A stretch of 64,000 nucleotides of DNA from NCBI RefSeq assembly GCF_013128195.2, contig NZ_CP053452.2:1116001-1180000 (forward strand), given 5' to 3'. The translations under genes were made by a program, and so were the position numbers. Under the pieces are notes generated by a model that worked only from the letters and a program-made list of their open reading frames with translations, had not been told where the DNA came from and did no database searches. This DNA comes from Frigoriglobus tundricola (GTDB lineage: Bacteria > Planctomycetota > Planctomycetia > Gemmatales > Gemmataceae). Below, piece by piece: positions 4,327 to 42,473 of the stretch. Numbering within the stretch: the first letter of the stretch is position 1; the number at the start of each line of letters is the position of its first letter.

Positions 4327-6279
4327 TCATTGATTCGCCTGCGTCGCGATCTTGTGCAACATCTCCTGGAGCACCTTCTGGTTGGCCGCCAACCGCGCCA
4401 GCTCCGTCTGCACGAGCGCGTCCCGGGCCTGTTCGCCGGGGTCCTGCTTGTTGTGCATGATGGTGCGCCGGTTCAGCGTCTCCTGCTGGAACTTGATCAG
4501 CTTGAGTTCGGCGAGGAGTTCCAGCAGCTTGTTGTCCGGCTTCTTGGCGTTCGGGTCGTTCGGCTTCGGCTCGCTCGGCTTGTTTTCGAGGTCCTGCTTG
4601 GCCTTCTTGAGGGCCTCGAGCATCATCTTGAGCTGGTCGATCACGTCCTGCTCGATCTGCTGCGTGTCCTCGCCGACGCGGGCCTCGTTCAGTCGCTTCT
4701 GAATGGCCTCCATGTCGCCCTTGACCTGGCTGAGCACGCCGGCGAAGACGACCGCCGTCCCCTCGCCCTCCATCAGCTTCAAGGTCTTCTCGGCCTCGGC
4801 GATGATCGCGTTCTCCCGGTCGGCCTGGGCCTGGCTCTTCTGAATCTCCGCGACGGCCGGCTTGCCACCAAGGGCCTTGACCGTCTTGTCGATCCCTTCG
4901 GTGGACGCCTTCACGTCCATCTGCATCCGGAGCATCCGGCTGACGCGCTCTTCGAGGTTCTGGAGGAGTTTGGCCAGCTCCTTCTCGCGGAGCTGCTTGA
5001 GGCGCTTTTCCAGTTCGGCGAGAGCCTTTTCGAGCTGATCGATCGCCTTGTCCTGCTTCTTGGACGCCTCCTTCGGGTCGCCTTTCTTAATGTCTTCCTC
5101 GGCCCCCTGCTGTTGCGGAACGGCTTGCTGCACTTCTTGCGCCGCCGGGTCCTTCGGCTTGTTCTGCGAGCCGCCTGAAGAGGGCGAGCCGCCACCCTTC
5201 GAGCCGCCGGGGCTGGGCATCCCGCCGCCCTCCATTGGCGCCCCGTCGCCGCCCATCGGCTTGCCCTCGCCGCCCGGCATCCCGGCCGACGGCTTGCTCT
5301 CGCCCTTACCGCTCCCCTGCGACTTGCTGTCGCCGCTCATCGGCTTCGGTTCGCCGCTATCCATCGGCGCCTTCGGCTCGCCCGACGGTTTCGGTTCGCC
5401 GGCCTTCGCGTCACCGGCCCCCTCTTTCGGGGAGGGCTTGTCGGCTCCGGCCGGCATGCCGCCCATCGGCGAGCCGGGCTTCGGGTCGCCGGGCTTCGAA
5501 TCGCCGCCCATCGGCATCCCGTCGCCCTTACCGTCGGCCTTGTTCTCTTTGGTTTCGGGCTTGGCTTCGGCGGTGTTGTCGCCGGGTTTCGACTCGGCCT
5601 TGGTTTCGGCCTTCGGGTCCGGCTTGTCGCCGCCCGCGTTCGGGTTGCCCTTGTTGTCCTTGTTTCCCTTATCGAGGGCGTTCGCCGTGTCTTGCGTCTT
5701 CGCGGCGAGATCCTTCTGGTCCTTGGCGAGCTTGTCCGGGTCGCCCCTCTTGCTGTCGGTCCGGGCGCGGACGTTTTCCTGCTTCCGCTTCAGCTCCTGG
5801 ATCGCCGCAATCGCCTTCTTGAGATCGGCAATCTCCCGCTGGATGCGGGCCAACTCGTCCTCGGTGTTCAGAACGTCCAGAATCTCTTCCAGAGCGGCGA
5901 TCAGCTTCTTGTCATCGCCGAGCAGCCGGCCGAAGTCGCTGCCCTCCAGGCTCCTGGAGTTCAGACCTTCGACGAGCCCTTTGAAGAGCTTTTCGACGCC
6001 CTTCTCTTCGATGACCTTGAGCGCCGCGCGGAGGGACTTGGCCCGTTCCTTCTCCTCGTTGTTGTCGCTCTTCTCCCACTTCTGCGCGAGCCGCAGGACC
6101 TCTTCAGAAAACCGCTTGAAAAGTTTGAGGTTTTCTTCCTGGTTCCGCTTCACCCCCGGGCCGTCTCCGGGCGTCGTGGCCGAAGGAGCCGGCTGGGCCG
6201 TCAGATGTGTGGTCAGAGCGAAGAGGCCGACGGTCGCGACGAACGCCAGCGACAGGAATGTCGGCAGCCGGCGGAACAT
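4327..6279 (-). CDS. Large exported coiled-coil protein with a low-complexity Gly/Pro/Lys/Met domain
   Basis: A 650-residue exported or membrane-anchored protein. The ATG at 6279 is preferred over 6333 because GGAGG lies just upstream and a signal or anchor segment (RRLPTFLSLAFVATVGLFA) follows at once. Residues about 45-195 are charged heptad-like helices. Residues about 200-376 are low complexity, built from short Pro-Lys-Gly-Ser-Asp-Met motifs such as GEPKPSGEPK and GGDGAPMEGGGMP. Residues about 400-640 are again long charged helices (KKQDKAIDQLEKALAELEKR). This suggests two coiled-coil rods joined by a flexible linker. Its place directly after the DUF4175-like gene suggests a partner of that membrane protein (inference). 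No enzymatic motif is seen. Confidence 0.75.
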   Translation of the reverse strand: MFRRLPTFLSLAFVATVGLFALTTHLTAQPAPSATTPGDGPGVKRNQEENLKLFKRFSEEVLRLAQKWEKSDNNEEKERAKSLRAALKVIEEKGVEKLFKGLVEGLNSRSLEGSDFGRLLGDDKKLIAALEEILDVLNTEDELARIQREIADLKKAIAAIQELKRKQENVRARTDSKRGDPDKLAKDQKDLAAKTQDTANALDKGNKDNKGNPNAGGDKPDPKAETKAESKPGDNTAEAKPETKENKADGKGDGMPMGGDSKPGDPKPGSPMGGMPAGADKPSPKEGAGDAKAGEPKPSGEPKAPMDSGEPKPMSGDSKSQGSGKGESKPSAGMPGGEGKPMGGDGAPMEGGGMPSPGGSKGGGSPSSGGSQNKPKDPAAQEVQQAVPQQQGAEEDIKKGDPKEASKKQDKAIDQLEKALAELEKRLKQLREKELAKLLQNLEERVSRMLRMQMDVKASTEGIDKTVKALGGKPAVAEIQKSQAQADRENAIIAEAEKTLKLMEGEGTAVVFAGVLSQVKGDMEAIQKRLNEARVGEDTQQIEQDVIDQLKMMLEALKKAKQDLENKPSEPKPNDPNAKKPDNKLLELLAELKLIKFQQETLNRRTIMHNKQDPGEQARDALVQTELARLAANQKVLQEMLHKIATQANQ

Positions 6280-6516
6280 GGGAGCCTCCCTCCGAGGGTG
6301 CGACGTGGATAATCCGCGTCGCCGAGTGGTCATTCATCTACCATTGTGACGAACCAAAAAGGGCCGCCCAACAGCCAACCGGGAAAAAACCGTGTGTCGA
6401 AGGCCAATTGTTACAGAGAGTTACGCCTTCAACGCACCTTTCGCTGCAACTCAAAGCTTTTACCGCCCGCTCCTTGAGCATTTTCGCTCAGGAACAACGC
6501 GGTCGCTCGGGGCTGC

Positions 6517-9500
6517 TCAATTCACGATAAGTTTGACCTCAACTGGTTTCCCAGCCGCCGGGGTGACGGTCACTGTGTGCGTCCCTTCTTTATTGCCCGC
6601 CTTGATCTCATATTCAAAATAGAACTGGTCTTTTTCGAAGTTCAGAGTGATCTGCGGGGCAACCGTTACGGACGGATCAGACGCCTTCAGCTTCACGACG
6701 AGATCATCTTCCTTGTACTGGTTCCACGCGATCGAGTGCCGAACCTTCTTCGTTTCACCTTTTGCCAAAGACAGCACACCGACCTCACCGATCTTCGGAT
6801 TCGGATCGTTCAGGGTGTGCCGCCACTCGTCCTCCATCTTCCGAATTTCGTTATCGATGCGTTGCTGCTGTTCTTTGATCGCGACCAGATCGCGCTTGAG
6901 TCGGTCGCGGCTCTGGGACTCGCCGATGAGCGCCCGGATCACCTGGACGCGGCGCTCGAGGGCGAAGAGCGAGTTCTCGGCGTCGCTGACCGCGGCGAGC
7001 GGCGCCCACCGGCTGTTGTTCAACACGTTCTGAACGACGGTCAACAGCGCTTGCGTCTTGGAGAAGCTCGTCGGCCCTTCGGCGGGGAACTGCGGGTTCT
7101 CACTGAGAACGTCTTCGATCTGCGCGGTGACGAAGCGGTACCGTTCGAGCGCCTTGTCGTTCAGGCGGTTGACCTCGCACTCGCGGGCGAGGCGGCGGTA
7201 CTCGCGGGCGACCGACTGGACCACGTCGCGGGCCTTCTCGATGTCCCCGAACGCGTCCTGGGAGCGCACCTTCACCGCGTCCACCTGCTCGGGCGACTCC
7301 TCCTTGTACCCGTTGGAGTTGCGGACGAACTCGTACTTCCGCTTGGCCCCGGCGATTTTGACCAGTGCCTCGTCGAGCCGGAGGGCGAGCTGCTCCTCCT
7401 CGCGGCCGATCTCGATGAGCAGGTCGCCCTCGGAGATGATCCGCAGGCGGATGGGCTCGGCGTTCCGGGTCACCTTCGGCCCCCCGTCGCCGTCCACGTT
7501 GTTGTCGGTCGCCTGCACGTTCAGGTCCATGCGGTAGATGGGCTGCACGTCGGTGTCCTTGGCGGCGATCGCGAGCAGCCCCTCGTCGTGCAGGAACTTC
7601 AGGTCGAAGAAGTCGCGCTCGGCGTCCTTCAGTTCGATCTTCTTGACCACCCGCTGGTCCGCCTCGGTGCTCGTCTCCTCGGCCTTCGGTCGGGACAACT
7701 GCGCCTCAAACTCCTGGCGGGTGCTGCGGTGCAACTTGCCGCCCTGGATGCTGAAGGCGCTGACGAACACGGACGAGTTGAGCCGGTCATCGACCCGGTC
7801 GTGCAGCTTGAAGTTCTCGGCGTGCAGCCGCGGCAGGACGGCGCCGGCCGTCGTGCCGGGGAGCGGCAGGTCGAGCAGGGAGCGGAGCGCGAGCCGGGTG
7901 CGCATGCCGCGCACCACCTCGGAGTCCTCGGCGTAGTAGCTGAACGTGTACTCCACCTTGCTCAGCCCGTGGTCGTCCTTGACGAAGCTGTCCGGGTTGA
8001 ACGGGATGCGGGCCTTCGGTGTGACGAGGTACACGTTGCCCGACTTGCGGATCACGTCCACCGCGACCTCGACCACCGGCGCCTGGTCCTGCTTCACCTG
8101 GATCAGGAACGACCGCGTGGTGCTCACGTTGTACTTGTTGGTGAACACCACTTTGAACTCGACGTTTTCCGTCAGCCGGGAGTCGGTGTACTTGTGGACC
8201 GCGTCGACCACGTGCCCGAACGCCGCCCCGGCGAAGCCGGCACCGGGCGCCGGCTTCGCCGGGAGCGGTACGGTCTCCTTGAAGGCGACGCTGAAGCCGG
8301 CCCCGTCGGCCGCGAGGGCGAGCGGGACGGGCGCCTGCGTGGGCTTGCCCGTGTCGTCGTAGACCGTGCCCGGGAAGCGGCCGGTTACGGGGACCGCGTA
8401 AGCGGACACGAGGCGATCGGTGTCCGAGAGGGTGCCGTTGTCGGCCGTGTACGCCTCGGCGATGAGCGTCAGTTCGGTCCCGGCGGGGACGACGAACACG
8501 GTGCGGTCGCCGGTGAGCGAGAGGTCCTTGGCGGCGACCTTCTGGAGCCGCCCCTCAAGGGCGCCGTACCCCTCGCCCTGGGGCGGGGCGTGGTGCAGGT
8601 ACGCGGGCTCCGCCTGGTCGAGGGCGAGCCGCTTGAGCGTGGGCGGCGGGATGAGCCGGATGCGCCGGGCGGCGCTGACGAAATCGGACCCGCGGACGAC
8701 GAACGCCACGTCCTCTTTGAGGCCGCCGATCTCGCCCGTGAACTCGTTGTTCTGCTGCGGGTTGAGGGTGCCGGTGCCGGTGGTCCGGCGTCCGGTGAAC
8801 TTGTACGTCACCTCGGTCGGGATCTCGAGCCGCCGGAGCGTGCGGCCCATGCTCGGCCGGTCGGCCTTCTCCGCGAGCGCCCGGAACACCTCCTGGAGCT
8901 GCTCGTACCCCTGCGGGGACTGCGCGTTCATCTGCTCCCGGAGCGCGGTGCGGACCCTGGTCGTCTCGGGCGTCGGCGCCTCGTCGCCCTCGGAGGCGAG
9001 GCGCTCGACGGCGTCCACCGTCCGCTCGGCGTCATCGGCGGCGGGCGCGAGTACGGCCGCGGGCAGCGGCGGCACCGGCCGGCCGACGAACGCGTCGGTC
9101 AGGTCGGCCCACACGAGCGGGCGCCACCCCTCCGGGGCCGTCCGGTCGGCGATCACCCAACGGTACGCGCGGGCGGTGACGCGCGGGGGCGGGGCGTCGC
9201 GGCCGATGGCGAGTTCCCCGTCGGCCGGGAACCCGACGAGGTCGATGTGCGCCCGGCGCGGCCAGGGCGTGTCGAGGAGCGCGACGTTCCGCTCGGCGAA
9301 GATGCCGGCGACGTGTGCGAACTTCCACCCGAACCGGTAGGGGTCGGAGGAGCCGGCGGCGATCGCGTAACTGGCGAAGGCGAACGCCAGGGTGCCGACG
9401 AGCAGGCCGGCGGCGAGCAGGCCCAGCGCCCACAGCCGCTTCCAGTCGAACACGTCCCGGACCGGCACCTTCGCGACCCGCTCGCGGGCCTCGGCGATGG

Positions 9501-30921: not shown

Positions 30922-32838
30922 ATGGCACTCTATGACTGGCTCTTCGGCCGCCCGCTCGCGACCGCGGAGGAAGAGGGCGAGCGGGTCGGCGCCGCGGCCG
31001 GCATCCCGATGCTCGGCCTCGACGCGCTCTCGTCCGCCGCGTACGGACCGGAAGCCGCGCTCACCATCCTCATCGTCCTCGGCGCCGGCGGCACCACGTA
31101 CGCGAACCCGATCACGCTCCTGATCGTGATCCTGCTCGCCCTGGTGTACTTCTCGTACCGGCAGACGATCGCGGCGTACCCGAACGGCGGCGGATCGTAC
31201 ACGGTGGCCAAGGAGAACCTCGGCGTCGGCCCCGGCCTGCTGGCCGCGGCGGCGCTCATGATCGACTACGTGCTGGTGGTCGCGGTGGGCGTCTCCGCGG
31301 GCGTGGGCGCGCTGGTGTCCGCGGCCCCCGAACTCCAGCCGTACACGCTCACGCTCTGCCTCGTCATCCTGGGCCTGATCGCGGCCATGAACCTGCGCGG
31401 CGCGCGGGAGTCCGGCGTCGCGCTGGCGGTCCCCACGTACCTGTTCATCGCGTCCCTGTTCGGCGTGATCGCGGTCGGCCTGGGGAAGGCGCTCGCGTCC
31501 GGCGGGCAGCCGTCCCCGGTCGTTCCGCCGCCGGTGGTCCCGGCCGCGACCGAGGCGGCCACCTGGTGGCTGCTCGCGAAGGCGTTCGCCAGCGGGTGCA
31601 CCGCGATGACGGGCGTCGAGGCCGTGAGCAACGGCGTGGCCGCGTTCCGCGAGCCGCGGGTGAAGAACGCCCAGCGGACGCTGACCGCGATCATCGTCAT
31701 CCTCGCGGTGCTGCTGCTCGGCATCGCGTACCTGTGCAAGGCGTACGGGATCGGGGCGACCGAGCCGGGGGCGGCCGGCTACGAGAGCACGCTGTCGCAA
31801 CTCGTCGGCGCCGTCGCCGGCCGCGGGGCGGTCTACTACGTCACCATCGCCTCCGTCCTCGCGGTGCTGTGCCTGTCGGCGAACACGGGGTTCGCGGACT
31901 TCCCGCGCCTCTGTCGGGCGGTCGCCCTCGACGGGTTCCTCCCGAACGGCTTCGCGCACCGCGGCCGGCGGCTGGTGTACACGGAGGGCATTCTTGTCAT
32001 CACGGTGCTGTCCGCCGTGCTGCTGGTCGCGTTCGACGGCGTCACGGACCACTTGATCCCGCTGTTCGCGGTCGGCGCGTTCCTCGCGTTCACGCTGTCG
32101 CAGATCGGGATGGTGGTCCACTGGCTGAAGCACCGGCCCGAGGGCCAGTCGCGCGCCGCGGCGAAGTGGGCGGCGGTCGTGAACGGGCTCGGCGCGCTGG
32201 GCACCGGGGTCGCGCTCGTGGTGGTGCTGGTCGCGAAGTTCGTCGAAGGCGCGTGGGTCACGGTCGCCCTGGTCGCGACACTGGTCGCCCTGTTCGTCTG
32301 GGTCCGGCGGCACTACCGGTCGGTCGCGCGCGAGGTCGCGAGTACCACGCCGCTCGCCGCCACGAACCTCAACCCGCCGCTCGTGGTGGTGCTGGTGCGC
32401 GGGTGGTCGCGGGTGACGCGCAAGGCGCTGCGGATGGCGATGCGGCTGTCGCCGAACGTGTACGCGCTCCACATCGCGGCCGACGAACAGCGGCTCCTGG
32501 CGCTCGAAGAAGAGTGGGAGAAGTACGTGACCGCGCCGTGCCTCGCCGCGGGCGTGGCCGCCCCGCAGTTGGCGGTGGTCACCTCGCCGTACCGGCGGCT
32601 CTACGGCCCGCTGATGGAGTTCATCGGCGACATGGTGAAGACGCACCCGAACCGGCACATCGCGGTCGTCGTCCCGGAACTGGTGGAGCGGAAGTGGTAC
32701 CACTTCCTGCTCCACAACCAGACCGCGGCGCTCATCAAGGGCTACCTGTACTTCAGCGGGCTGGAGCGCGTCGTGGTGGTCAACGTGCCGTGGTACCTCA
32801 AAGGTGACGAAGGAGCGGGGGAGAAGGCGCCGGCGTGA
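30922..32838 (+). CDS. APC-superfamily permease, KimA (YdaO)-like potassium transporter
   Basis: A 638-residue inner-membrane transporter with about 12 hydrophobic helices in the first 470 residues and a soluble C-terminal domain of about 150 residues. Motifs LGLDALSSAAYGPEA (near residues 30-44) and SYRQTIAAYPNGGGSY resemble the KimA/YdaO group of proton-coupled potassium importers, whose C-terminal domain is a USP-like regulatory module. The size (KimA is about 600) fits. An amino-acid permease of the same superfamily is the alternative. I see no c-di-AMP riboswitch in the 207-bp leader. It converges with the kinase gene, whose stop is 22 bp away. Confidence 0.8.
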   Translation: MALYDWLFGRPLATAEEEGERVGAAAGIPMLGLDALSSAAYGPEAALTILIVLGAGGTTYANPITLLIVILLALVYFSYRQTIAAYPNGGGSYTVAKENLGVGPGLLAAAALMIDYVLVVAVGVSAGVGALVSAAPELQPYTLTLCLVILGLIAAMNLRGARESGVALAVPTYLFIASLFGVIAVGLGKALASGGQPSPVVPPPVVPAATEAATWWLLAKAFASGCTAMTGVEAVSNGVAAFREPRVKNAQRTLTAIIVILAVLLLGIAYLCKAYGIGATEPGAAGYESTLSQLVGAVAGRGAVYYVTIASVLAVLCLSANTGFADFPRLCRAVALDGFLPNGFAHRGRRLVYTEGILVITVLSAVLLVAFDGVTDHLIPLFAVGAFLAFTLSQIGMVVHWLKHRPEGQSRAAAKWAAVVNGLGALGTGVALVVVLVAKFVEGAWVTVALVATLVALFVWVRRHYRSVAREVASTTPLAATNLNPPLVVVLVRGWSRVTRKALRMAMRLSPNVYALHIAADEQRLLALEEEWEKYVTAPCLAAGVAAPQLAVVTSPYRRLYGPLMEFIGDMVKTHPNRHIAVVVPELVERKWYHFLLHNQTAALIKGYLYFSGLERVVVVNVPWYLKGDEGAGEKAPA

Positions 32839-32860
32839 CCAGCGAGCGGGCCGGTCGAGG

Positions 32861-34564
32861 TCACCGCGCGCCCGCGAGCAGTTTCTCCAGCGCGTCCGGT
32901 GCGACCGGCTTGGTGAAGTGGCGGTCGAAGCCGGCCTCCGCCGCCCGCCGCTTGTCCTCTTCCTGGCCCCATCCCGTCAGTGCCACCAGGAGCACGCTCT
33001 TGCCCCCGACTTGCTCGCGGATCCGCCGGGCGGCCTCGTAGCCGTTCAGGCGCGGCATGCCGATATCGAGCAGGATCACCTCGGGTCGGAAGGCGCCGGC
33101 CGACTCCACGGCCGCGAGCCCGTCGTGAACGGTAACCACCTCGTGCCCCATGAGGGCCAGCATTTCGGCCAGGCTCAGGGCCGCATCGACGTTGTCGTCT
33201 GCGATCAGCACCCGGCGCTTGCGGAAGGCCCCGCGCCCCTCCGCCGCCGCGGGCTCCGGGCCGCTCGGCGCGGGGGGCGCCGCGCCCGACACCGGCAACC
33301 GAACGGTGAACTCGCTCCCCCGGCCCTCGCCCTCGCTGCGCGCCTCCACGGTCCCGCCGTGCAACTCGACCAGCCCCTTCACGAGCGACAGCCCGATCCC
33401 GAGCCCGCCCTGCGTCCGCTCCAGCGCGGAGTCCACCTGCGAGAACATCTCGAACAGTTTCGGCAGGTGGTCGGCCGGGATGCCGATCCCGTTGTCCGCG
33501 ACCGACACCGCCACGCCGCCCGGCTCCCGACGGGCCGCCAGCCGAATGTGCCCGCCCGCGTCCGTGTACTTGGCCGCGTTCACCAGGATGTTGCCGAACA
33601 CCTGCACCAGCCGGGTCATGTCCCCGATCAGGAACACCGGGTCGGGGGGCAGCGTGACGAGCAGTTCGTGCCCGGCCGCCTCGATCACCGGGCGGCTGGC
33701 CTCAACGGCGCTCGCCAGAACGGCGTCGAGCCCGACGAGCGCGGTCTGGAGGGTGATCTTCCCGCGCGTGATCCGCGACACGTCGAGCAGGTCGTCCACG
33801 AGACGGGACAGGTGCGCGGCCTGCCGCTCGATCACGTCGCGGGCGTTGCGCATGATCGGGTCGGTGAGCCCTTTGAGCTTCAGGAGCTGGGCGGCGTTCC
33901 GGATGGGCGCGAGCGGGTTCCGGAGCTCGTGGGCGAGGACGGCGAGGAACTCGTCCTTCTTCCGGTCCGTTTCCTGCGCCTGCCGGGCGAGCCGCTCGGC
34001 CGCCGCCCGCGCCGCCTCCTCGCTCACCAGGCGGCGGGCCGTTTCCTCCTGGTTCTTGCGCTCGGTCAGGTCGGTCACCACCAGCCCGAGGGCCACCGCG
34101 CCCGACAGCGGCAGGGCGTTGAGCGCGAGGTGGACCGGTACGGGCGCGCCCTCGACCGGCTGGAGCCGGAGTTCCCCGTGGCTCTGGGTCGCCTGAGCCT
34201 CCTTCAAGATGCCCCGCCACTCGGACCGATCGGCCGCGGCGACGAACTCCTCGAACGGCCGCCCGCCCGCCCGCTCCTGGGACACCTTCAGCAGCGCCGC
34301 GAACGAGCGGTTGCAGTAGAGCACGGTGCCGTCGGCGCTCAGGCTGGCCGCCCCCTGCCCCGGCTGCATGGCCTCGATCAGCACGCGGTAGAACTGGTCG
34401 GCGCCTTCCAGCGTGTACACGCGGTGCCCGTCCACGCCCGCCACGACCACGGCGTCCACTTCGCCCTTGCGGATCGCGTCCAGGGTGGCCTCGGCCTCCT
34501 CCAGCCGCACGCGCAGTTCCTCGTTCTCGGCCAGGAGCCACTCGTCGGTCGAACCGTCTGGCAT
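32861..34564 (-). CDS. Hybrid sensor histidine kinase (PAS-HisKA-HATPase-REC) of the kai operon
   Basis: A 567-residue soluble hybrid kinase. An N-terminal helix leads into a PAS domain (about 55-168). A coiled linker ends in the HisKA motif FLAVLAHELRNPL with His212. The HATPase domain shows the N box (NILVNAAKYT), G1 (DNGIGIP) and G2 (GGLGIGLSL). A receiver domain covers the last 120 residues, with acidic pocket LIADDN, phospho-acceptor Asp in VILLDIGMP and a conserved Lys in FTKP. The start at 34564 has GGAGG upstream; the frame open to 34783 adds residues that translate the kaiB gene out of frame. It is the last gene of the operon, 20 bp after the second kaiB, so it is the probable output or input kinase of the Kai proteins. 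Confidence 0.92.
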   Translation of the reverse strand: MPDGSTDEWLLAENEELRVRLEEAEATLDAIRKGEVDAVVVAGVDGHRVYTLEGADQFYRVLIEAMQPGQGAASLSADGTVLYCNRSFAALLKVSQERAGGRPFEEFVAAADRSEWRGILKEAQATQSHGELRLQPVEGAPVPVHLALNALPLSGAVALGLVVTDLTERKNQEETARRLVSEEAARAAAERLARQAQETDRKKDEFLAVLAHELRNPLAPIRNAAQLLKLKGLTDPIMRNARDVIERQAAHLSRLVDDLLDVSRITRGKITLQTALVGLDAVLASAVEASRPVIEAAGHELLVTLPPDPVFLIGDMTRLVQVFGNILVNAAKYTDAGGHIRLAARREPGGVAVSVADNGIGIPADHLPKLFEMFSQVDSALERTQGGLGIGLSLVKGLVELHGGTVEARSEGEGRGSEFTVRLPVSGAAPPAPSGPEPAAAEGRGAFRKRRVLIADDNVDAALSLAEMLALMGHEVVTVHDGLAAVESAGAFRPEVILLDIGMPRLNGYEAARRIREQVGGKSVLLVALTGWGQEEDKRRAAEAGFDRHFTKPVAPDALEKLLAGAR

Positions 34565-34584
34565 AGCGTCCGCCTCCGCGGCCC

Positions 34585-34920
34585 TCAGCCCGGCCGCCGG
34601 AGGTTGAGCCCCCGGAGGACGTGCTCCGTTTCCAACAGGTCGCCGACCAGGCGCCGGACCGGCAGCGGGAGCACCTTGACGAGCGTCGGGGTCACGACGA
34701 TCTGGTGCTCCACGGCCAGCCCGGGGTGCTGGTAGATGTCCACGACCTCGAGATCGTACCGCCCGGGCAGGTGCTCCTCGCACAGCGCCCGGACGCGCGC
34801 GAGCGCGCCGCTCCCGCGCGGGGTCACCCCGGCGACGAACAGGCGCAACAGGTAGCGCTCTCGTGCGGCCTCGGCAGCCCGCCGCTCAAACGCCTCGGCC
34901 CCGTCCGTGCCGGCGCCCAT
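34585..34920 (-). CDS. kaiB: KaiB-like protein, second copy
   Basis: A 111-residue protein with the KaiB fold pattern: strand LLRLFVAG, helix with LCEEHLPGRYDLEVVDIY, then VTPTLVKVLPLPVRRLVGDL and a tail with LRGLNLR. KaiB binds KaiC and in cyanobacteria switches folds. This copy deviates in the fold-switch region (GDLLETEHVL where KaiB has GDLSDxEKVL), so it may have a different partner or a locked fold. The first 20 residues are an extra charged helix. It starts 9 bp after the first kaiB behind GAGGGCGG and ends 20 bp before the kinase gene. Confidence 0.9.
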   Translation of the reverse strand: MGAGTDGAEAFERRAAEAARERYLLRLFVAGVTPRGSGALARVRALCEEHLPGRYDLEVVDIYQHPGLAVEHQIVVTPTLVKVLPLPVRRLVGDLLETEHVLRGLNLRRPG

Positions 34921-34929
34921 GACCCGCCC

Positions 34930-35244
34930 TCACTTCGTCCGCGGTCGGAGCTGGAGCCCGACCAGCACCTTCTCCGTATCCGACAGGTCGCCGATGATCC
35001 GGCGGATCGGTTCTGGCAGCGTACGGACCAGCGTCGGGATGGCGACGATCTGATCGCCGACCGCCAGTTGCGGGTTGATCAGGAGGTCGATCACCTCGAT
35101 GCGGTACTTCCCGGCCAGGTGCTCCTCGCACAGCTTCTTCAAATTGGCGAAGGCGGCGACGGACTTGGCCGTCTGCCCGGCCACGTACAGCCGCAGCTCC
35201 CAAATGTCCGGCCGCTCCGGTTCTCCGCTCCCCTCGCTCGTCAC
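34930..35244 (-). CDS. kaiB: KaiB-like protein, first copy
   Basis: A 104-residue KaiB protein, close to the usual length of about 100. Conserved elements are [51 protein letters not shown] and [13 protein letters not shown], the last almost identical to the cyanobacterial consensus. The start is the GTG at 35244: a strong AAGGAGG lies upstream and its GTGA overlaps the kaiC stop by 4 bases, giving translational coupling. It should bind the KaiC ring. This copy is the better candidate for true KaiB function. Confidence 0.92.
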
Positions 35245-36722
35245 GGGCCACCTCCTTCGGACCGGGGCTCCGCCCGCACCGCCGACGGCACCGCTTTGCC
35301 CAACTCGATCCCGCCGTCGGTGAGCCGGAACTCCCGGACCTGCTTCGAGTGCGCCATCCCGCGGGACTTGAGCACGTACAGGACGCCGCCGCGCTCGCCG
35401 TTCCGCTCCGTGTCCCTCAACAACAACCAGGTGTCGATGATGGACGAGATGCCGGTGTCCGTCTCCTCCGCCGCGGAGCCGGCGTGCGTCAAGTTGGTGA
35501 AGAGGCTGGTGACCCCCCGCTCCTTGAGGAAATCGACCAGGCGGACCAGCATCGCCCCGGCCTCGGTCGTGGTGCCCGCGGCGATGAAGTTGCTGATGGG
35601 GTCGATGACCACCACCTGGGGGGCGAAGTCGGTCACTTCCTGGTACATCGTCGCCAGGTGCATTTCCAACCCGTACCGCGTCGGCCGGGTGGAGTGGACG
35701 CGGAGCCGGCCGGTGCTCAGCCACGGCTCCAGGTCCAGCCCGATGGACCGCAGGTTGCGGACCAGTTGGCTCTGGGCCTCCTCGAAGGAGAAGTACAGGC
35801 ACTTCTCGCCCCGCGCGCAGGCAGCGGCGGCGAAGTGGCCCGCCAGGCTGGTCTTCCCGGTCCCCGCCGTGCCGGAGACGAGCACGCTCGTGCCCCGCAG
35901 GTAGCCCTTGCCGCCGAGCATCCCGTCCACGGCCGCGACCCCGGTCGAGACCCGCTCGGTGGAGGCGGGGTGGTCCATGCCGGCCGACGTGATCGGGACG
36001 ACGGTGATGCCGTCGCCGCTGATCAGGAACGGGAACTCGTTGGTCCCGTGGGCCGAGCCGCGGTACTTCACGACCCGGAGCCGGCGGGTGGACACCTGCT
36101 CGGTGACCCGGTGGTCGAGGGCGATCACACAGTCCGAAACGTACTCCTCCAGCCCGTACCGCGTGAGCGACCCGTCCCCGCGCTCGCCGGTGATGACGAC
36201 GGTGACGCGCCGGTCCTTGAACCAGCGGAACAGCCGGCGGAGCTCGGCCCGCAGGACCGCGGCGTTGGACAGCCCGCTGAACAGGACCTCAAGGGTGTCG
36301 AGTACGACCCGCTTCGCGCCGAGCGAGTCGATGGCGTGTCCCAAGCGGACGAAGAGCCCTTCGAGGTCGTACTCGCCGGTCTCGTCGATCTCGCTCCGCT
36401 CGACGTACACGTAGTCCACCGCGAGCTTCTTCCGCGCGATCAGGTCGTTCAGATCGAACCCGAGCGACCGGACGTTCGCGGCGAGCTCCGCAGCGGTTTC
36501 TTCGAACGCCATGAACACGCCCGGCTCGTCGTACCGGGTCGCCCCCCGGACGAGGAACTCGGCCGCGAGCAGCGTCTTGCCGCACCCCGGCCCGCCGCAC
36601 ACGAGGGTGGGCCGCCCCATCGGCAGTCCGCCCCCGGTCACGTCGTCGAGCCCCGGAATCCCGGTCGGGCACTTGGGCAGGAAGTCCCCACCCGCTCGAG
36701 GTTGGTTCTTGGCTCCGATCAT
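35241..36722 (-). CDS. kaiC: KaiC-like double-RecA ATPase/kinase
   Basis: A 493-residue KaiC homologue (cyanobacterial KaiC is about 519). The N-terminal RecA domain has Walker A GGPGCGKT (43-50) and catalytic Glu74-Glu75. The C-terminal domain has Walker A GTAGTGKT (284-291) and Glu314-Glu315. The position of the cyanobacterial phosphosites Ser431/Thr432 holds Ser426-Ser427 (GISSIID), so autophosphorylation on two serines is plausible. The long C-terminal tail that binds KaiA in cyanobacteria is short here (about 20 residues, Gly/Pro-ending), and no kaiA is present. AGGGA lies before the ATG. It heads a four-gene operon with two kaiB genes and a hybrid kinase. Whether it oscillates or works as an hourglass or stress switch cannot be read from sequence. 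Confidence 0.93.
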
Positions 36723-37582
36723 CGCATTCCCTGACTAGGTCGCGTGCTCCCGTTCCGCGCCCGCGCCGCCCGAAACGGGCGGACGCGGGTGCCATCAATA
36801 CGATTATATTCTGGCGTTCGGACGGTCTCCACCGACGGACATCACACTCACAAACGCACCGCGAGTATTCACCAGAAGCCGTGGCACCAAAGTGAGTTCG
36901 CACCGCACAACGGGGCCGATTCAGCGTCGTTTCCCCTGTTCTTCGGTCGGCGTCGAACAAGCCGCCGAACCCGACAGCAACTCGCGTACCAATTTCCGCC
37001 GCCTTATCTCGTGCTCATTCAACTGCGTCCCATTCTCACCGACGGAGTGGAACGCCACTCAAGCGGCGCGAGAGTTGCACACAACTCGCGCAACAACCGG
37101 AGCATTAGGTTCAACGTGAGCGGGCCAACGGCAACGGGCTCGTTCGGGACGCAACCGCCGATGGGAATTACTCCCCTTTGGAACGCTCTCGAGAGTTACT
37201 TATTTTGGCGGCACAAGAGACCGGCCACACACCAACAATCCGACTATTGTCTCGATAGCTCAGGCCACTCACCCGCTCGGGTAAGGGGGCAACGGCGACC
37301 GGTAAAATTCCCTAAGTGGTTGTGACCGATTTCGCTGCCGCTTGACAGCCCGACGACGTCGCTTGGCCGGAACGCGGGGCGCCGCCCGCGGGTTGGGGTG
37401 GGACGAAGTGACCGGGGGTGCGGAACTCGAGCAGATGGTACGCACGATATCCGCCGAAGAACGGTCACGCGAACGGGAGAAGGCCCGAACGGAACCGCAC
37501 GGCCCCCAAAAGAATCCCCACCCAGTGCCGCTCCCGGACGATCGATTCGCGAAGGGTAGACCAACACCCAGGGTCAGTTACA
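36723..37582. other. Divergent intergenic region between kaiC and the hybrid-kinase genes
   Basis: These 860 bases are lower in G+C than the flanking genes. Short open frames on both strands lack a ribosome site, codon bias or a recognisable product, so I call no gene. The region holds the candidate kai promoter near 36803-36831 and must also hold the promoter of the plus-strand kinase genes. Confidence 0.5.
36803..36831 (-). promoter_or_regulatory. Candidate promoter of the kai operon
   Basis: On the minus strand a perfect TATAAT (36803-36808) lies 17 bp after TGGAGA (36826-36831), which matches TTGACA at four of six positions. It would start a transcript about 70-75 bases before the kaiC ATG. 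A perfect -10 box is uncommon by chance in this G+C-rich sequence. No mapped start supports it. Confidence 0.4.
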
Positions 37583-39532
37583 ATGAGCGTCTTCGAAGCC
37601 CCGGGGGACGCCCCATACGCCCGCCGCCCGGTCCCGCCCGGTTCCGGCGACCGGTCGAGCGACGGAACCCGACTCGCGATGCCCCGATCGTCTCCGCCCA
37701 ACACGTTCCCCGGCGACGGCGAGATGAGCCGCCTGATCCGGGACCACGACTGGTCGTCCACCCCGCTCGGGCCGCTGGCGACCTGGCCGCAGAGCCTCAC
37801 GGTCGCGGTCCGCATCATGCTCGACTCCCGCTACGCCATGTGGCTCGGCTGGGGGCCGTCGCTCACGTTCCTGTACAACGAAGCCTACGCCCGTGCGACT
37901 CTCGGCGCAAAACACCCGTGGGTGCTGGGCCGCCCCTTCCGCGAAGTGTGGGGCGAGATCTGGTCCGACCTGTCCCCCCGAATCGAACGGGTGGTCACCA
38001 CCGGGGAGGCCACCTGGGACGAGGGCCTGCTCCTGTTCCTCGAGCGCCGCGGGTACCCGGAAGAGACGTACCACACGTTCTCTTACAGCCCGCTCCCGGA
38101 CGACGCCGGCGGGATCGGCGGCATGTTGTGCGTGGTGACGGAGGACACCGATCGCACGATCGGCGAGCGCCGGCTGAAGACGCTCCGGGAACTGGCCGCG
38201 CGAACGACGGAGTCGATGATTTCGGCCGAGGCGGCGTGCCGCGCCGCCGCCCGCACCCTCGCCGCCAACCCGAACGATCTCCCGTTCGCTCTGCTCTACC
38301 TGATCGACGCGGACGGCCGTACCGCCCGCCTGGCCGGCACGGCCGGACTGGAGGCCGGATCACCGGCCGCGCCGACCGCCGTCGGGCTCGTGGAACCGTC
38401 CGGCGCCGACGTCTGGCACTTGCGAACCGTGGCCGACACCCGCGAATTGCAGGTCGTGTCCGACGCGGCTCCGCGCCTCGGCGCGGGACCGGTCGGCATC
38501 TATCCCGAGCCGCCGCACACGGCCGTCGTTCTACCCGTTCACAAATCGGGTCAGCACGCACTGGCCGGCTTCTTCGTGGCCGGCATCAGCCCGCGGCGCC
38601 CGCTCGACGACGGCTACCGCGGGTTCCTCGACCTCCTCGTCGGCCAGGTCGCCACGGCCGTCGCCAGCGCCCGCGCCTACGAGGAGGAGCGGAGCCGCGC
38701 CGAAGCCCTGGCCGAACTCGACCGGGCCAAGACCGCGTTCTTCTCGAACGTCAGCCACGAGTTCCGCACCCCGCTCACCCTCATGCTCGGCCCGGTCGAG
38801 GACCTCCTCACCGCCCCGTCCGGCGACGTCGGCCCGGCGGCCCGCGGGGTCCTCGCCGTCGTCCACCGCAACGGCTTGCGGCTCCAGAAACTCGTTAACA
38901 CGCTGCTCGATTTCTCCCGGATCGAGGCGGGCCGGATGCGGGCCTCGTTCGAGGCGACCGACCTCGCCGGCCTCACGGCCGATCTCGCGAGCAACTTCCG
39001 CTCGGCGTGCGAGCGGGCCGGTCTGGAGTTCGTGGTGGACTGCCCGCCGCTGGGCGAACCGGCCTTCGTGGACCGGGACATGTGGGAGAAGCTCGTTCTG
39101 AACCTCGTCTCCAACGCGTTCAAGTTCACGCTCCGGGGCCGCATCGAGGTCCGGCTGCGGCGGGCGGGCGACGGCGCCGCGCTGACCGTCCGCGACACCG
39201 GAACGGGCATCCCCGCGGACCAGATGCCGCACCTGTTCGAACGGTTCTACCGTATCGAGGGCGCGGTCGGGCGCACGCAGGAGGGCTCGGGCATCGGGCT
39301 GGCCCTGGTGCGGGAACTGGCCCGCCAGCACGGCGGCGAGGTCCGGGCCGAGAGCGCGCTCGGGACCGGCAGTACGTTCACGGTCACGATCCCGTTGGGC
39401 TCCGCGCACCTGCCGCCGGACCGCACCGCGCGCGGCACCGCCTCGCACCCGACGACGCGGGCCGCCGCCTTTGTCGAAGAGGCCCTGCGGTGGCTGCCGG
39501 CGTCGGGGGCGGGGGCGCGGGGCCGGCCGTGA
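37583..39532 (+). CDS. Sensor histidine kinase (PAS-GAF-HisKA-HATPase), probably the 5' part of a split hybrid kinase
   Basis: A 649-residue kinase segment. The ATG at 37583 is preferred; the frame is open to 37418. Residues about 45-195 are a PAS-like input domain (HDWSSTPLGPLATWPQSL, YAMWLGWGPSLTFLYNEAY) and a GAF domain follows at about 215-365. The HisKA motif is FFSNVSHEFRTPL, the N box NLVSNAFKFT, G1 DTGTGIP and G2 GSGIGLALV. It ends with EEALRWLP, ten more residues and a stop. The next frame, which begins with a receiver domain, overlaps it by 62 bp in another phase. In hybrid kinases of this layout the receiver normally continues in the same chain, so this is likely one gene interrupted by a frameshift near 39500-39600. 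Confidence 0.88.
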   Translation: MSVFEAPGDAPYARRPVPPGSGDRSSDGTRLAMPRSSPPNTFPGDGEMSRLIRDHDWSSTPLGPLATWPQSLTVAVRIMLDSRYAMWLGWGPSLTFLYNEAYARATLGAKHPWVLGRPFREVWGEIWSDLSPRIERVVTTGEATWDEGLLLFLERRGYPEETYHTFSYSPLPDDAGGIGGMLCVVTEDTDRTIGERRLKTLRELAARTTESMISAEAACRAAARTLAANPNDLPFALLYLIDADGRTARLAGTAGLEAGSPAAPTAVGLVEPSGADVWHLRTVADTRELQVVSDAAPRLGAGPVGIYPEPPHTAVVLPVHKSGQHALAGFFVAGISPRRPLDDGYRGFLDLLVGQVATAVASARAYEEERSRAEALAELDRAKTAFFSNVSHEFRTPLTLMLGPVEDLLTAPSGDVGPAARGVLAVVHRNGLRLQKLVNTLLDFSRIEAGRMRASFEATDLAGLTADLASNFRSACERAGLEFVVDCPPLGEPAFVDRDMWEKLVLNLVSNAFKFTLRGRIEVRLRRAGDGAALTVRDTGTGIPADQMPHLFERFYRIEGAVGRTQEGSGIGLALVRELARQHGGEVRAESALGTGSTFTVTIPLGSAHLPPDRTARGTASHPTTRAAAFVEEALRWLPASGAGARGRP

Positions 39533-42473
39533 GCGGCGAAGGGACCGGGCCCACGCGACGCACGCGACGCGCGCGACGAGGGGCGCGCCACCCCTCCGCC
39601 CGCGACCGAGCCCGCGCGTCCTTCTGGCGGACGACAACGCCGACATGCGCGACTACGTCCGCCGCTTGCTCGCCGAGCGGTACGACGTGGAAGTAGTCAC
39701 GAACGGGGCCGACGCGCTAGCCGCCGCCCGGCGGGCCTGCCCCGACCTCGTCCTGTCCGACGTGATGATGCCGGTCCTCGACGGGTTCGGGCTGTTGAGC
39801 GAGTTGCGGGCCGACCCCGCCACCGCCGGGGTGCCCGTCCTGCTCGTCTCGGCCCGGGCGGGCGAAGAGGCCCGCGTGGAGGGGCTCCGGGCCGGGGCCG
39901 ACGACTACCTGACCAAGCCGTTCGGCGCGCGGGAGCTGTTGGCCCGTGTCGAGGCCCACCTGGCGCTGGCCCGGCTGCGGCGCGACACCGAGCAGCGGGC
40001 GCGCACCATCCTGGAGTCGATCACCGACGCCTTCTTCGCCCTCGATCGGGAGTGGCGGTTCACCTACGTGAACCGCCACGCGGAGGCCGCCCTCGCCCGC
40101 ACCCGGGCCGACCTGGTGGGCAAAAACCTGTGGGCGGAGTACGCCCCGGCGGTGGGAACCGCGTTCCACGTCGAGCTCCTCCGCGCGGCGGCGGAACACG
40201 TGAGCGTGAGCTTCGAGGACTATTACCCGCCGCACGGCCGCTGGTACGAGGTGCGGGCGTACCCGTCCGCGGCGGGCCTGTCGGTGTACTTCCGCGACAT
40301 CTCCGAGCGGAAGCGGGTGGCCGCGGGGGAGCGGTTCCTGGCCGAAGCGGGCGCGGTGCTGGCGTCCTCCCTCGATTACGAGACGACGCTCGCCGCCGTG
40401 GTCCGGTTGGCCGTTCCGGCCCTGGCCGACTGGTGCAGCGTCTTCCTCGTGGACGCCGGGAACGGTCTCCGGCAGATCGCCGCCGCGCACCCGGACCCGG
40501 CCCTGGTGGAACGGGCCGAGGAGATGACCCGCCGCTACCCGCCGCACCCCGAGGACGCGACGGGGATCGGCGGCGTGATCCGCACCGGGGAGCCGCGCCT
40601 GGTGCCCGACCTGACCGACGCGCTGCTCGCCGCCTCGGCCCGCGACCCGGACCACCTCGCCCTGCTGCGCGAAATCGGCCCCCGGTCCGTGATGATCGTG
40701 CCGCTGACCGCCCGGGACCGGGTGCTGGGCGCGATCACGTTCGTCTACGCCGAAACCGGTCGGCGGTACGAGGCGCGGGACCTCGCGCTGGCCCAGGAAC
40801 TGGGCCGGCGCGCGGCCCTGGCGGTGGACAACGCCCGGCTGTACCACGCGAGCGCGGACGCGCTCCACCGGTTGGGCGTCCTCGTGGAGGCGTCGGGGCT
40901 GCTGACCCGGTCGCTGGAACTGCCCGCCGTTCAGGCCGCGGTCCTCGACCTGTCCCACCGCCTGATCGCCGCCGACGCCTACGCGGTGTGGCAGTTCGAC
41001 GCGGGCGCGGAGGAGTGGCGGATCGCCAGTTCCGCCAACCTGTCCGACACGTACCTGAGCGAGGCGGGCCGGATCCCGGGGACCGACCGCATGTCCGATC
41101 GGCCGATCGTAGAAGAGGACGCCCAGGGCGCCGCCCGGCTGGAGGGGCGGCGCCGGGCGTACCGGGCCGAGGGCATCGAATCGCTGTTGGCCGTACCCCT
41201 GCGGGTCCACAGCTCGGTGGCCGGCACGCTGGTCTTCTATTACAAGACGCGGCGGCGGTTCGACGACGTGACGGTGCGGGTCGCCAGCGCCCTCGCGGAC
41301 CTGTCGGGCGCGGCGCTCGGCACGGCGGAACTGTACCAGCGCGAGAGGGCGTCCCGGCACCGGGCCGAAGAGGCGGACCGCGCGAAGGACGAGTTCCTCG
41401 CCCTGCTCGGCCACGAGCTGCGCAACCCGATCGCCCCGATCAAGTACGCCCTCCAGATCCTCGAACTCAAGGGCGACGACCCGGCGGCCGCGGCGCGGGC
41501 GCGGGCGATGATCGACCGCCAGGCGACGCACCTGACGCGCCTGGTCGAAGAGCTGCTCGACGCCTCGCGGATCGCGCGGGGCAAGGTGCGGCTGACGGTC
41601 GAACGACTGGACCTCGTCGCCCTGGTGCGCACCGCCGTGGAGGACCACCGGGCCGGCGTGGAGAAAGCCGGGCTGAGTCTGGAGGTCGCCGCGCCGGCGC
41701 ACCCCCTGCGCATGCGCGGCGACTCGGCCCGGTTGACGCAGGTGGTCACCAACCTGCTCGCCAACGCGGCGAAGTTTACCCCCGCCGGTGGGAGCGTGAC
41801 CGTCCGGCTCCACGCTCTGGCGGGCGAAGCGGTCCTGACTGTCTCGGACACCGGCATCGGGCTCGCCGAGCCGGACCTGCCCGCCGTGTTCCACCCCTTC
41901 TACCAGGTGAACGCCGACCCGGCCCGGACGAAGGGCGGACTGGGGCTCGGTCTGGCCGTCGTGAGAGGGCTGATCGAGTTGCACGGCGGCCGGGTCCACG
42001 CGACGAGCCCCGGGCTCCAGAAGGGCTCGGCGTTCACCGTTTACCTGCCGCTCGACGACACGACTTCGGTGCCGGCACCCGGTCCGGCGCGCGCCAGGGC
42101 CGCCGGCGGCGGCCGGCGGCTCGTGATCGTCGAGGACAGTGTGGACTCGGCCGAGTCGCTCGCGGAAGTGCTGGGGCTGAAGGGGTTCACGGTGTCGATC
42201 GCCACCACCGGCCCGGACGGGGTCGCGCTGTGCCAGCGCGAGCGCCCGGACGGCGTCGTGTGCGACATCGGGCTGCCCGGGATGACGGGCTTCGACGTGG
42301 CCCGCGCCCTGCGGGCCGACCCGCGCACCGCCGGCGCGGTCCTGGTCGCGGTGAGCGGGTACGCCCAGGAGGAGGACCGGCGGAAGGCCGCCCAGGCCGG
42401 GTTCGACGCGCTCCTCGCCAAACCCGCCGACATCGAACACCTGGTCGGGTTACTGGCGCGGCCCCGTGGCTGA
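39471..42473 (+). CDS. Hybrid histidine kinase (REC-PAS-GAF-GAF-HisKA-HATPase-REC), probably the 3' part of a split gene
   Basis: Up to 1000 residues, but the start is doubtful. The only upstream start is TTG at 39471, and the first 47 residues are an Arg-rich, shadow-like run. The receiver domain begins at about residue 49 (RVLLADDNADMRDYV; phospho-acceptor Asp in LVLSDVMMP; Lys in LTKPFGA). A PAS domain is at about 175-290, two GAF domains at about 305-465 and 470-625, HisKA with FLALLGHELRNPI, HATPase with NLLANAAKFT, DTGIGL and GGLGLGLAV, and a second receiver (EDSVDSAES, VVCDIGLPGMTGF). It follows the previous kinase frame with a phase change. It reads either as a separately translated protein or, more likely, as the continuation of that one. 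Confidence 0.85.
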   Translation: MSKRPCGGCRRRGRGRGAGRERRRDRAHATHATRATRGAPPLRPRPSPRVLLADDNADMRDYVRRLLAERYDVEVVTNGADALAAARRACPDLVLSDVMMPVLDGFGLLSELRADPATAGVPVLLVSARAGEEARVEGLRAGADDYLTKPFGARELLARVEAHLALARLRRDTEQRARTILESITDAFFALDREWRFTYVNRHAEAALARTRADLVGKNLWAEYAPAVGTAFHVELLRAAAEHVSVSFEDYYPPHGRWYEVRAYPSAAGLSVYFRDISERKRVAAGERFLAEAGAVLASSLDYETTLAAVVRLAVPALADWCSVFLVDAGNGLRQIAAAHPDPALVERAEEMTRRYPPHPEDATGIGGVIRTGEPRLVPDLTDALLAASARDPDHLALLREIGPRSVMIVPLTARDRVLGAITFVYAETGRRYEARDLALAQELGRRAALAVDNARLYHASADALHRLGVLVEASGLLTRSLELPAVQAAVLDLSHRLIAADAYAVWQFDAGAEEWRIASSANLSDTYLSEAGRIPGTDRMSDRPIVEEDAQGAARLEGRRRAYRAEGIESLLAVPLRVHSSVAGTLVFYYKTRRRFDDVTVRVASALADLSGAALGTAELYQRERASRHRAEEADRAKDEFLALLGHELRNPIAPIKYALQILELKGDDPAAAARARAMIDRQATHLTRLVEELLDASRIARGKVRLTVERLDLVALVRTAVEDHRAGVEKAGLSLEVAAPAHPLRMRGDSARLTQVVTNLLANAAKFTPAGGSVTVRLHALAGEAVLTVSDTGIGLAEPDLPAVFHPFYQVNADPARTKGGLGLGLAVVRGLIELHGGRVHATSPGLQKGSAFTVYLPLDDTTSVPAPGPARARAAGGGRRLVIVEDSVDSAESLAEVLGLKGFTVSIATTGPDGVALCQRERPDGVVCDIGLPGMTGFDVARALRADPRTAGAVLVAVSGYAQEEDRRKAAQAGFDALLAKPADIEHLVGLLARPRG

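Follow-up and report, generated by a model that had tools for sequence, protein, structure and literature searches.

Kai operons without KaiA and the Frigoriglobus locus

Clusters of kaiC and kaiB with a downstream kinase or GGDEF/EAL gene were described in 2011 (PMC3164672), and the kaiC-kaiB-PAS/histidine kinase operon of R. sphaeroides and R. palustris was described in 2016 (PMC4794148). Here, an operon of this kind from Frigoriglobus tundricola was examined, which occupies positions 32,861 to 36,722 of a 64,000-nucleotide stretch of DNA (NZ_CP053452.2, positions 1,116,001 to 1,180,000; hereafter the window) and encodes KaiC, two KaiB proteins (KaiB-A and KaiB-B) and a hybrid histidine kinase. 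Since kaiC-kaiB-kinase operons have been published, and the four-gene order is itself annotated on a Pararhizobium plasmid, the kind is already known; what goes further is that the order is widespread, that the KaiBs fall into two classes, A and B, that the kinase begins with an unnamed segment, termed the head, which is strongly linked to KaiB, and that the window KaiC is without a long tail. The reading favoured here, with a probability of roughly 0.45, is that of a KaiA-less, KaiC2-type energy or time switch, the state of which reaches the kinase via the head, with KaiB-B probably serving as an adaptor.

A preliminary description had reported four minus-strand genes with a 4-nt overlap, a 9-bp gap and a 20-bp gap, encoding a full-length KaiC, two KaiBs and a PAS-HisKA-HATPase-REC kinase. 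The coordinates of the open reading frames, from which four neighbouring minus-strand genes and their spacings are read directly, bear out the layout, and family matches far beyond chance bear out the products:

35241..36722, minus strand: kaiC, from ATG 36722 to the stop at 35241, 493 amino acids; double-domain KaiC with a Ser-Ser dyad, without a long C-terminal tail
34930..35244, minus strand: kaiB-A, from GTG 35244, 104 amino acids; class A, R. sphaeroides-like; 4-nt overlap with kaiC
34585..34920, minus strand: kaiB-B, from ATG 34920, 111 amino acids; class B; 9-bp gap after kaiB-A
32861..34564, minus strand: hybrid kinase gene, from ATG 34564, 567 amino acids, head-PAS-HisKA-HATPase-REC; 20-bp gap after kaiB-B

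An alternative kinase start, GTG 34783, is in frame and upstream but would overlap kaiB-B. The operon had also been described as lacking KaiA, and indeed no KaiA match was obtained in the host genome (9.86 Mb, two contigs) by a search that was positive in an S. elongatus control, such that this component of a canonical KaiABC clock was not found. The kaiB-A/kaiB-B pair represents the sole KaiBs detected in a search of the same genome.

The KaiBC system of R. sphaeroides (RSKD131_RS21460-21470) resembles that of the window in its Ser-Ser KaiC, its kaiC-kaiB-kinase order, the same kinase head and the absence of KaiA (PMC10076222), but has one KaiB, of the A type, a 478-amino-acid kinase annotated as HWE, and a KaiC of 570 amino acids with a dodecamer-forming coiled coil, which is missing from the window KaiC. 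Plasmid p3 of Pararhizobium qamdonense (WP_276122320 to WP_276122321) carries kaiC-kaiB-kaiB-'response regulator', with an A-type followed by a B-type KaiB and with the head, yet the long KaiC tail is kept and the kinase core, as judged by eye, is a different one. Compared by description, the proto-circadian operon of R. palustris, for which the authors suggested a single promoter, is likewise KaiA-less and has a PAS histidine kinase, but only one KaiB (PMC4794148), while the Ramlibacter KaiC/Nt_HK group is similar in that a specific, conserved kinase, whose N-terminal domain is likewise conserved, is encoded behind kaiC, but has no KaiB and has SY/TY/SF phosphorylation sites (PMC3164672). Finally, cyanobacterial SasA is a kinase coupled to KaiC via a KaiB-like domain, which the KaiB-B profiles match weakly but significantly; in SasA, however, that domain is fused to the kinase, whereas KaiB-B is a separate open reading frame and the window kinase, with its own head and PAS domain, has no KaiB-like domain fused to its HisKA-HATPase part.

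A scan of genome contigs with the window KaiC gave 205 loci encoding a relative, the best 80 of which were kept; because short patterns taken from the window protein were used to find the loci, the sample leans to close relatives. With C, B and K standing for KaiC, KaiB and a head protein, respectively, the gene orders were CBBK (61 loci), CBK (11), C (3), CBB (2), and CBBKB, CBBKBK and CB (one each), and in the six loci without K the sequence ends at or soon after the last gene seen. The kaiC-kaiB-kaiB-head kinase order is accordingly present in 63 of the 80. Locus titles name Planctomycetota (Schlesneria and others), Verrucomicrobia, Lentisphaerae, Bacteroidota (Mucilaginibacter, Segetibacter, Larkinella), Desulfuromonadales and other former deltaproteobacteria, Methylococcaceae, Fibrobacteria, Sulfotelmatobacter, Thermoflexales and one Methanoperedens bin, although single titles may be wrong since most loci are metagenome bins.

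Conservation of the four-gene order, by which the preliminary description was to be judged, stands among KaiC loci but does not extend to relatives in general: the block occurs in four of 99 genomes of a relatives set, the window genome counted; it is not confined to Gemmataceae-like relatives, nor is it general among them. In the same set, KaiB was matched in 22 genomes (in 20 above cut-off), and within the genus, window excluded, in one of 18. Regions from 18 relatives, 17 of them with KaiC, showed kaiB-kaiC without the head (9), CBK (4), CBBK (3) and CB (1), and presence is accordingly patchy. Some planctomycete relatives (L110, L111, L113-L118, L120) have another type of operon, in which kaiB-kaiC precedes a kinase gene and the head is absent; eight of its nine kinases carry a receiver, and its KaiBs form a clade of their own, with a Shimodaira-Hasegawa-like approximate likelihood ratio test (SH-aLRT) value of 98. 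Separately, a plasmid of Hymenobacter sp. GOD-10R (L158) encodes a KaiB with no annotated KaiC within 5 kb, in an incomplete gene table.

KaiB classes and the kinase head

Both KaiB proteins match the KaiB family PF07689 (KaiB-A, 1.5e-27, 95.5 bits; KaiB-B, 4.5e-23, 81.2 bits; cut-off 27) and both score below the NCBIfam KaiB equivalog cut-offs. They are of similar length, and their profiles are 41% identical across 91 columns. The preliminary description had noted two different KaiB variants with a linked kinase, and, to judge from their sequences, these are indeed distinct classes in a fixed order, A upstream and B adjoining the kinase. A tree of 159 KaiB domains (92 columns, 87 of 156 forks open, KaiBs of fewer than 75 residues left out) places 66 A rows and five single KaiBs on one side of a branch with an SH-aLRT of 98, and the B rows are strongly clustered, with 10 label changes on the tree as against a shuffled mean of 51. 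Signature columns hold Ile in 66/66 A versus Leu in 67/68 B; Tyr in 60/68 B, mostly Leu in A; and Gln in 62/68 B, mostly Lys or Glu in A. Single-KaiB CBK loci, classed from their sequences, comprise five of the A type (L029, L112, L119, L121, L123) and ten of the B type. Origin of KaiB-B as a duplicate of KaiB-A within the window lineage was considered and rejected, since for both window KaiBs the closest sequences are members of the same class from other genomes.

Profiles of the two classes behave differently when compared with structures in the PDB. The KaiB-A profile (12 rows) matched R. sphaeroides KaiB at 135 bits and gave no SasA match up to an expectation value (E) of 0.1, whereas the KaiB-B profile matched R. 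sphaeroides KaiB at 116 bits and the SasA N-domain at 1.4e-5 and 7.2e-5. When repeated with 20 rows per class, SasA was matched at E 0.1 for A versus 3.1e-5 and 3.4e-5 for B; the two KaiB-B sets have no locus in common, and L063 is in both KaiB-A sets. Legionella KaiB, which is reported to have been crystallised in the fold-switched state (PMC10808063), scored 72 bits with the A profile and 89 with the B profile. An AlphaFold2 model of KaiB-A (12 rows) adopts the ground fold, with a mean predicted local distance difference test score (pLDDT) of 64, its best match being 2qke (E 2.5e-9, template modelling (TM) score 0.66), compared with a TM score of 0.44 against the fold-switched 5jyt.

The kinase matches the Pfam families PAS, HisKA, HATPase_c and Response_reg, and has the features of a hybrid histidine kinase, namely H212, an N-box, the motifs DNGIGIP and GLGIGL, and D500:

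34379..34525, minus strand: head, the KaiB-linked N-terminal segment, residues 14-62, of about 45 residues, preceding the PAS domain
34055..34393, minus strand: PAS domain, residues 58-170
33761..33958, minus strand: HisKA, residues 203-268, expected phosphoacceptor H212
33290..33625, minus strand: HATPase_c, residues 314-425
32876..33211, minus strand: receiver domain, residues 452-563, expected phosphoacceptor D500

The head has the consensus LRxRLxEAEETLRAIRxGEVDAxVVxGxxGxxVFTLxGAExxYRxLIE, and its alignment was built from 31 of 77 segments (less than 72% identical) plus the window, with L121 left out and five of 82 proteins having no pattern match. Neither Pfam nor NCBIfam had a model that matched the first 60 residues of the kinase (best E 0.025 and 0.048), and the first 94 had no second good match in the host genome (next E 0.12). 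In the 99-genome relatives set the head profile gave 10 matches, eight of them directly behind a KaiB, although four of the eight (window, G014, G029 and G088) had helped to build the profile; of the remaining two, one lies elsewhere in a KaiB-bearing genome (G083) and the other (G085, E 6.6e-4) in a genome without a KaiB match. Sixteen other locus-supplying genomes gave 22 matches, 16 of which are known loci; four of the six extra matches are beside or in a kai cluster (a second copy in G109, G103:C88, G113:C250 and G113:C201), and two (G113:C303 and G102:C95) are away from kai clusters. The cleanest test of the linkage between head and KaiB is a scan of the class to which a Geobacter bin belongs, which gave 17 matches in 16 of 195 genomes, one being the seed. 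Each of the 13 new matches with E ≤4e-18 is directly behind a KaiB, unlike the three with E >1e-5. The KaiB preceding those 13 heads scored higher with the B-class model in every case (nine tandem, four single), at one single-KaiB locus by 130 versus 126 bits only.

With the same profile, the head was also detected in two further operon kinases, those of R. sphaeroides (E 3.9e-24) and Pararhizobium (E 9.6e-37, 114.5 bits). A tblastn search of plasmids with a 42-residue head piece gave no match at E 0.01; since the profile found the head in two plasmids of the same collection, a single-sequence search is too weak for this segment. No description of the A and B classes or of the head was found in the open-licence literature, which is weak evidence of absence given that subscription papers mostly fall outside it. 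A head motif was also seen behind the A-type KaiB of L123 (G077, 6496-7869), in a frame that has no kinase or PAS match and in which a hydrophobic run follows the head.

The head is constant while the part behind it varies. Among 81 head proteins, scanned without L031 (a cut head protein) and L123, HATPase_c was matched in 75, HisKA_3 in 55, HisKA in 20, a receiver in 14, HisKA_2, a sigma-54 activator and HD in one each, and PAS in 80; the R. sphaeroides head kinase, as noted, is annotated as HWE type. A receiver gene lies within 1.5 kb behind the head protein in 19 of 75 cases from the 80 loci, with too little sequence in 10 of the rest, and no response regulator gene is linked to the window operon. 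Locus L073 has, behind the first set, a third KaiB and another head kinase, and in L030 a second head kinase lies some 2.4 kb beyond a third KaiB, which suggests that the KaiB-head kinase unit has been duplicated.

Distances between heads were also compared with those between KaiBs in 61 of the 68 tandem loci. The partial correlation of head with KaiB-B, given KaiC and KaiB-A, was 0.54, a value reached in 0 of 300 permutations, whereas that of head with KaiB-A, given KaiC and KaiB-B, was 0.11, with 18 of 300 permutations as high. The correlation supports, but does not prove, a possible contact between head and KaiB-B.

KaiC and the route of signalling

KaiC matches PF06745 at 1.3e-107 in two stretches and NCBIfam KaiC PRK09302 at 686 bits (cut-off 408). 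As in the double-domain KaiC family, each RecA-like domain contains a Walker A motif (K49, K290) and a catalytic EE pair (E74-E75, E314-E315):

35991..36671, minus strand: KaiC CI domain, first PF06745 match
35298..35951, minus strand: KaiC CII domain, second PF06745 match
35442..35447, minus strand: putative phosphorylation dyad S426-S427, which aligns with the Ser-Ser dyad of R. sphaeroides KaiC

The R. sphaeroides dyad is S413/S414 (PMC10076222), and by this alignment S426-S427 would represent the phosphorylatable pair of CII. The nearest solved relatives are R. sphaeroides KaiC structures (8db3, 8dba and 8fwi; 609-613 bits), with S. elongatus KaiC far below at about 310 bits. The KaiC2 subgroup is described as having two Ser sites, with a tail longer by some 50 residues found predominantly within it (PMC10076222); the window protein has the dyad but lacks the extension, which is predominant rather than universal in the subgroup. 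Indeed, only 19 residues follow residue 474, the common end, compared with at least 52 past the equivalent position in 79 of the 80 loci (median 108), the two shortest of these 79 tails (52 and 57 residues) being cut by a contig end.

By eye, the long tails resemble a charged coiled coil, and they align to that of R. sphaeroides KaiC, as shown for Pararhizobium. In R. sphaeroides, KaiC is reported to autophosphorylate without KaiA, and its tail to link a pair of hexamers and favour dephosphorylation when ADP is present; the delta-coil protein, a hexamer, retains autophosphorylation but shows hardly any dephosphorylation (PMC10076222). Since the window KaiC is without the tail, like the delta-coil form, it is predicted to be a KaiA-independent hexamer, which by analogy would need another way of being reset. 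Gene decay or a frameshift as the source of the short tail was rejected, because kaiB-A starts inside the last kaiC codons and because two relatives have a short tail too: those of G014 (same genus, KaiC 83% identical) and G019 (74%) have six residues each, and both genomes have all four genes as open frames. The long tail is kept, at 109 residues, in G029 of the same family. A further short tail, of 18 residues, was observed in a Thermoflexales bin with the four-gene order (L098, KaiC 5956-7488), apparently through a separate loss.

From these features we infer how the system might act, including what its proteins do, which way the signal runs, whether KaiB-B is an adaptor and whether there is any timing. 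The preliminary inference of a self-contained timer or stress switch with a dedicated two-component output is supported in part, as regards the KaiA-less operon, its two distinct KaiBs, the linked kinase and the conservation of the block; a timing or stress role and the output direction are conjectural. At plentiful ATP the KaiC hexamer would autophosphorylate on S426/S427 without KaiA, thereby registering the ATP state in the manner of R. sphaeroides KaiC. KaiB-A, as an ordinary KaiB, would switch from its resting ground fold, bind the KaiC CI ring and drive KaiC toward an ATP-hydrolysing, dephosphorylated state. KaiB-B would act as the adaptor that couples the state of KaiC to the head of the co-encoded kinase, such that KaiB-B and the head kinase jointly perform the task of one-chain SasA, and the kinase would then phosphorylate H212, its own receiver at D500 and an unlinked partner. 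A broader proposal, a 'split SasA' in which KaiB-B docks an exchangeable head-bearing signalling protein on KaiC as a general KaiA-less output in many phyla, is offered tentatively, being possible rather than probable.

Several observations weigh against this reading. Head kinases occur behind a single A-type KaiB in R. sphaeroides, in L029 and in the planctomycete relatives L112, L119 and L121, so KaiB-B is not indispensable for the head; conversely, KaiB-A is dispensable, since ten loci carry a B-type KaiB only, and no head kinase was found within 5 kb behind kaiC-kaiB in G056 (L122), the CB case among relatives. The ten changes on the tree mean that class B is not one clean clade. KaiB-B profiles match ordinary KaiBs best, at 103-116 bits versus 27-28 bits for SasA, and the AlphaFold2 model of KaiB-B is too poor to reveal its fold, with pLDDT below 50 at residues 90-111 and no PDB match at E 0.001. 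The substitutions I68R, V83D and N84R switched R. sphaeroides KaiB to the thioredoxin-like fold (PMC10808063), yet the window KaiB-B has V, R and G, none of the switching residues, at the positions mapped by alignment, and class B as a rule likewise lacks the switching residues. Finally, the distance correlation may stem from shared inheritance or differing rates.

The kinase could instead be an input, with its PAS domain sensing redox, oxygen or a small molecule and setting the state of KaiBC through docking of the head on KaiB or KaiC. Such a role has been suggested for the operon kinases of R. sphaeroides and R. rubrum (PMC5520375, PMC10931921), and the near-universal PAS domain, the missing response regulator in the window operon and the scarcity of nearby receiver genes would suit it. 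Against this, the part behind the head swaps among HisKA, HisKA_3, HWE, HD and sigma-54, as outputs would, and we regard an input role as doubtful. It is unlikely, too, that KaiB-B is a second timing KaiB, a hetero-oligomer partner or competitor that tunes binding of KaiB-A to KaiC, with its link to the kinase positional only. The common family, similar length and profile identity of the two proteins, the survival of the operon in the absence of either class and the much better match of KaiB-B to ordinary KaiBs than to SasA are consistent with that role; the fixed order in which B adjoins the kinase, the class-specific residues, head distances that track B and not A, and better SasA scores in B only are arguments for the adaptor. 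Decay of the window copy, in which loss of the coil has removed ADP-driven dephosphorylation and locked the switch in the phosphorylated state, would fit the 19-residue tail and the behaviour of coil-less R. sphaeroides KaiC, but is improbable given four intact, closely packed genes and the short tails of G014, G019 (both with four open genes) and L098.

Genomic surroundings and significance

A possible promoter precedes the operon, identified by consensus match only:

36803..36831, minus strand: sigma-70-like promoter match TGGAGA-17-TATAAT, about 80 nt before kaiC

Two sigma-70-like sites were found in 32400-37600, compared with 0.1 expected in shuffles. Membership of the flanking genes in the system is not supported, as the two tested do not accompany the kai block: the amino-acid permease had a strong match in one of 16 other genomes searched, and the best G014 match of the upstream kinase is about 585 kb away from the G014 kai genes. 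That kinase and the next frame (37418-39532 and 39471-42473, plus strand) jointly align to one 1613-residue paralogue, a stop-to-stop frame at C1:9673771-9678609, with residues 1-659 in one window frame and 691-863 and 1056-1605 in another; since the paralogue aligns in two frames, the window copy appears to have been broken up by a change of frame near 39.5 kb. The host also has a second double-domain KaiC-like gene without KaiB (C1:9691073-9692452; L126, L128, L161), about 12 kb from the long paralogue, and the gene directly behind it shows weak histidine-kinase similarity.

It has been concluded that possible clocks outside the cyanobacteria must use an output pathway unlike that of S. elongatus (PMC5520375). 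The head is a concrete, testable candidate for passing on the state of KaiA-less Kai systems, and it is also encoded beside the KaiBC of R. sphaeroides, whose KaiC and KaiB have already been purified and solved; if true, the split-SasA proposal would also explain the kinase encoded there. Division of KaiB into two classes provides a natural split between 'timing' and 'signalling' forms, and in the window KaiC the engineered delta-coil protein has a counterpart from nature.

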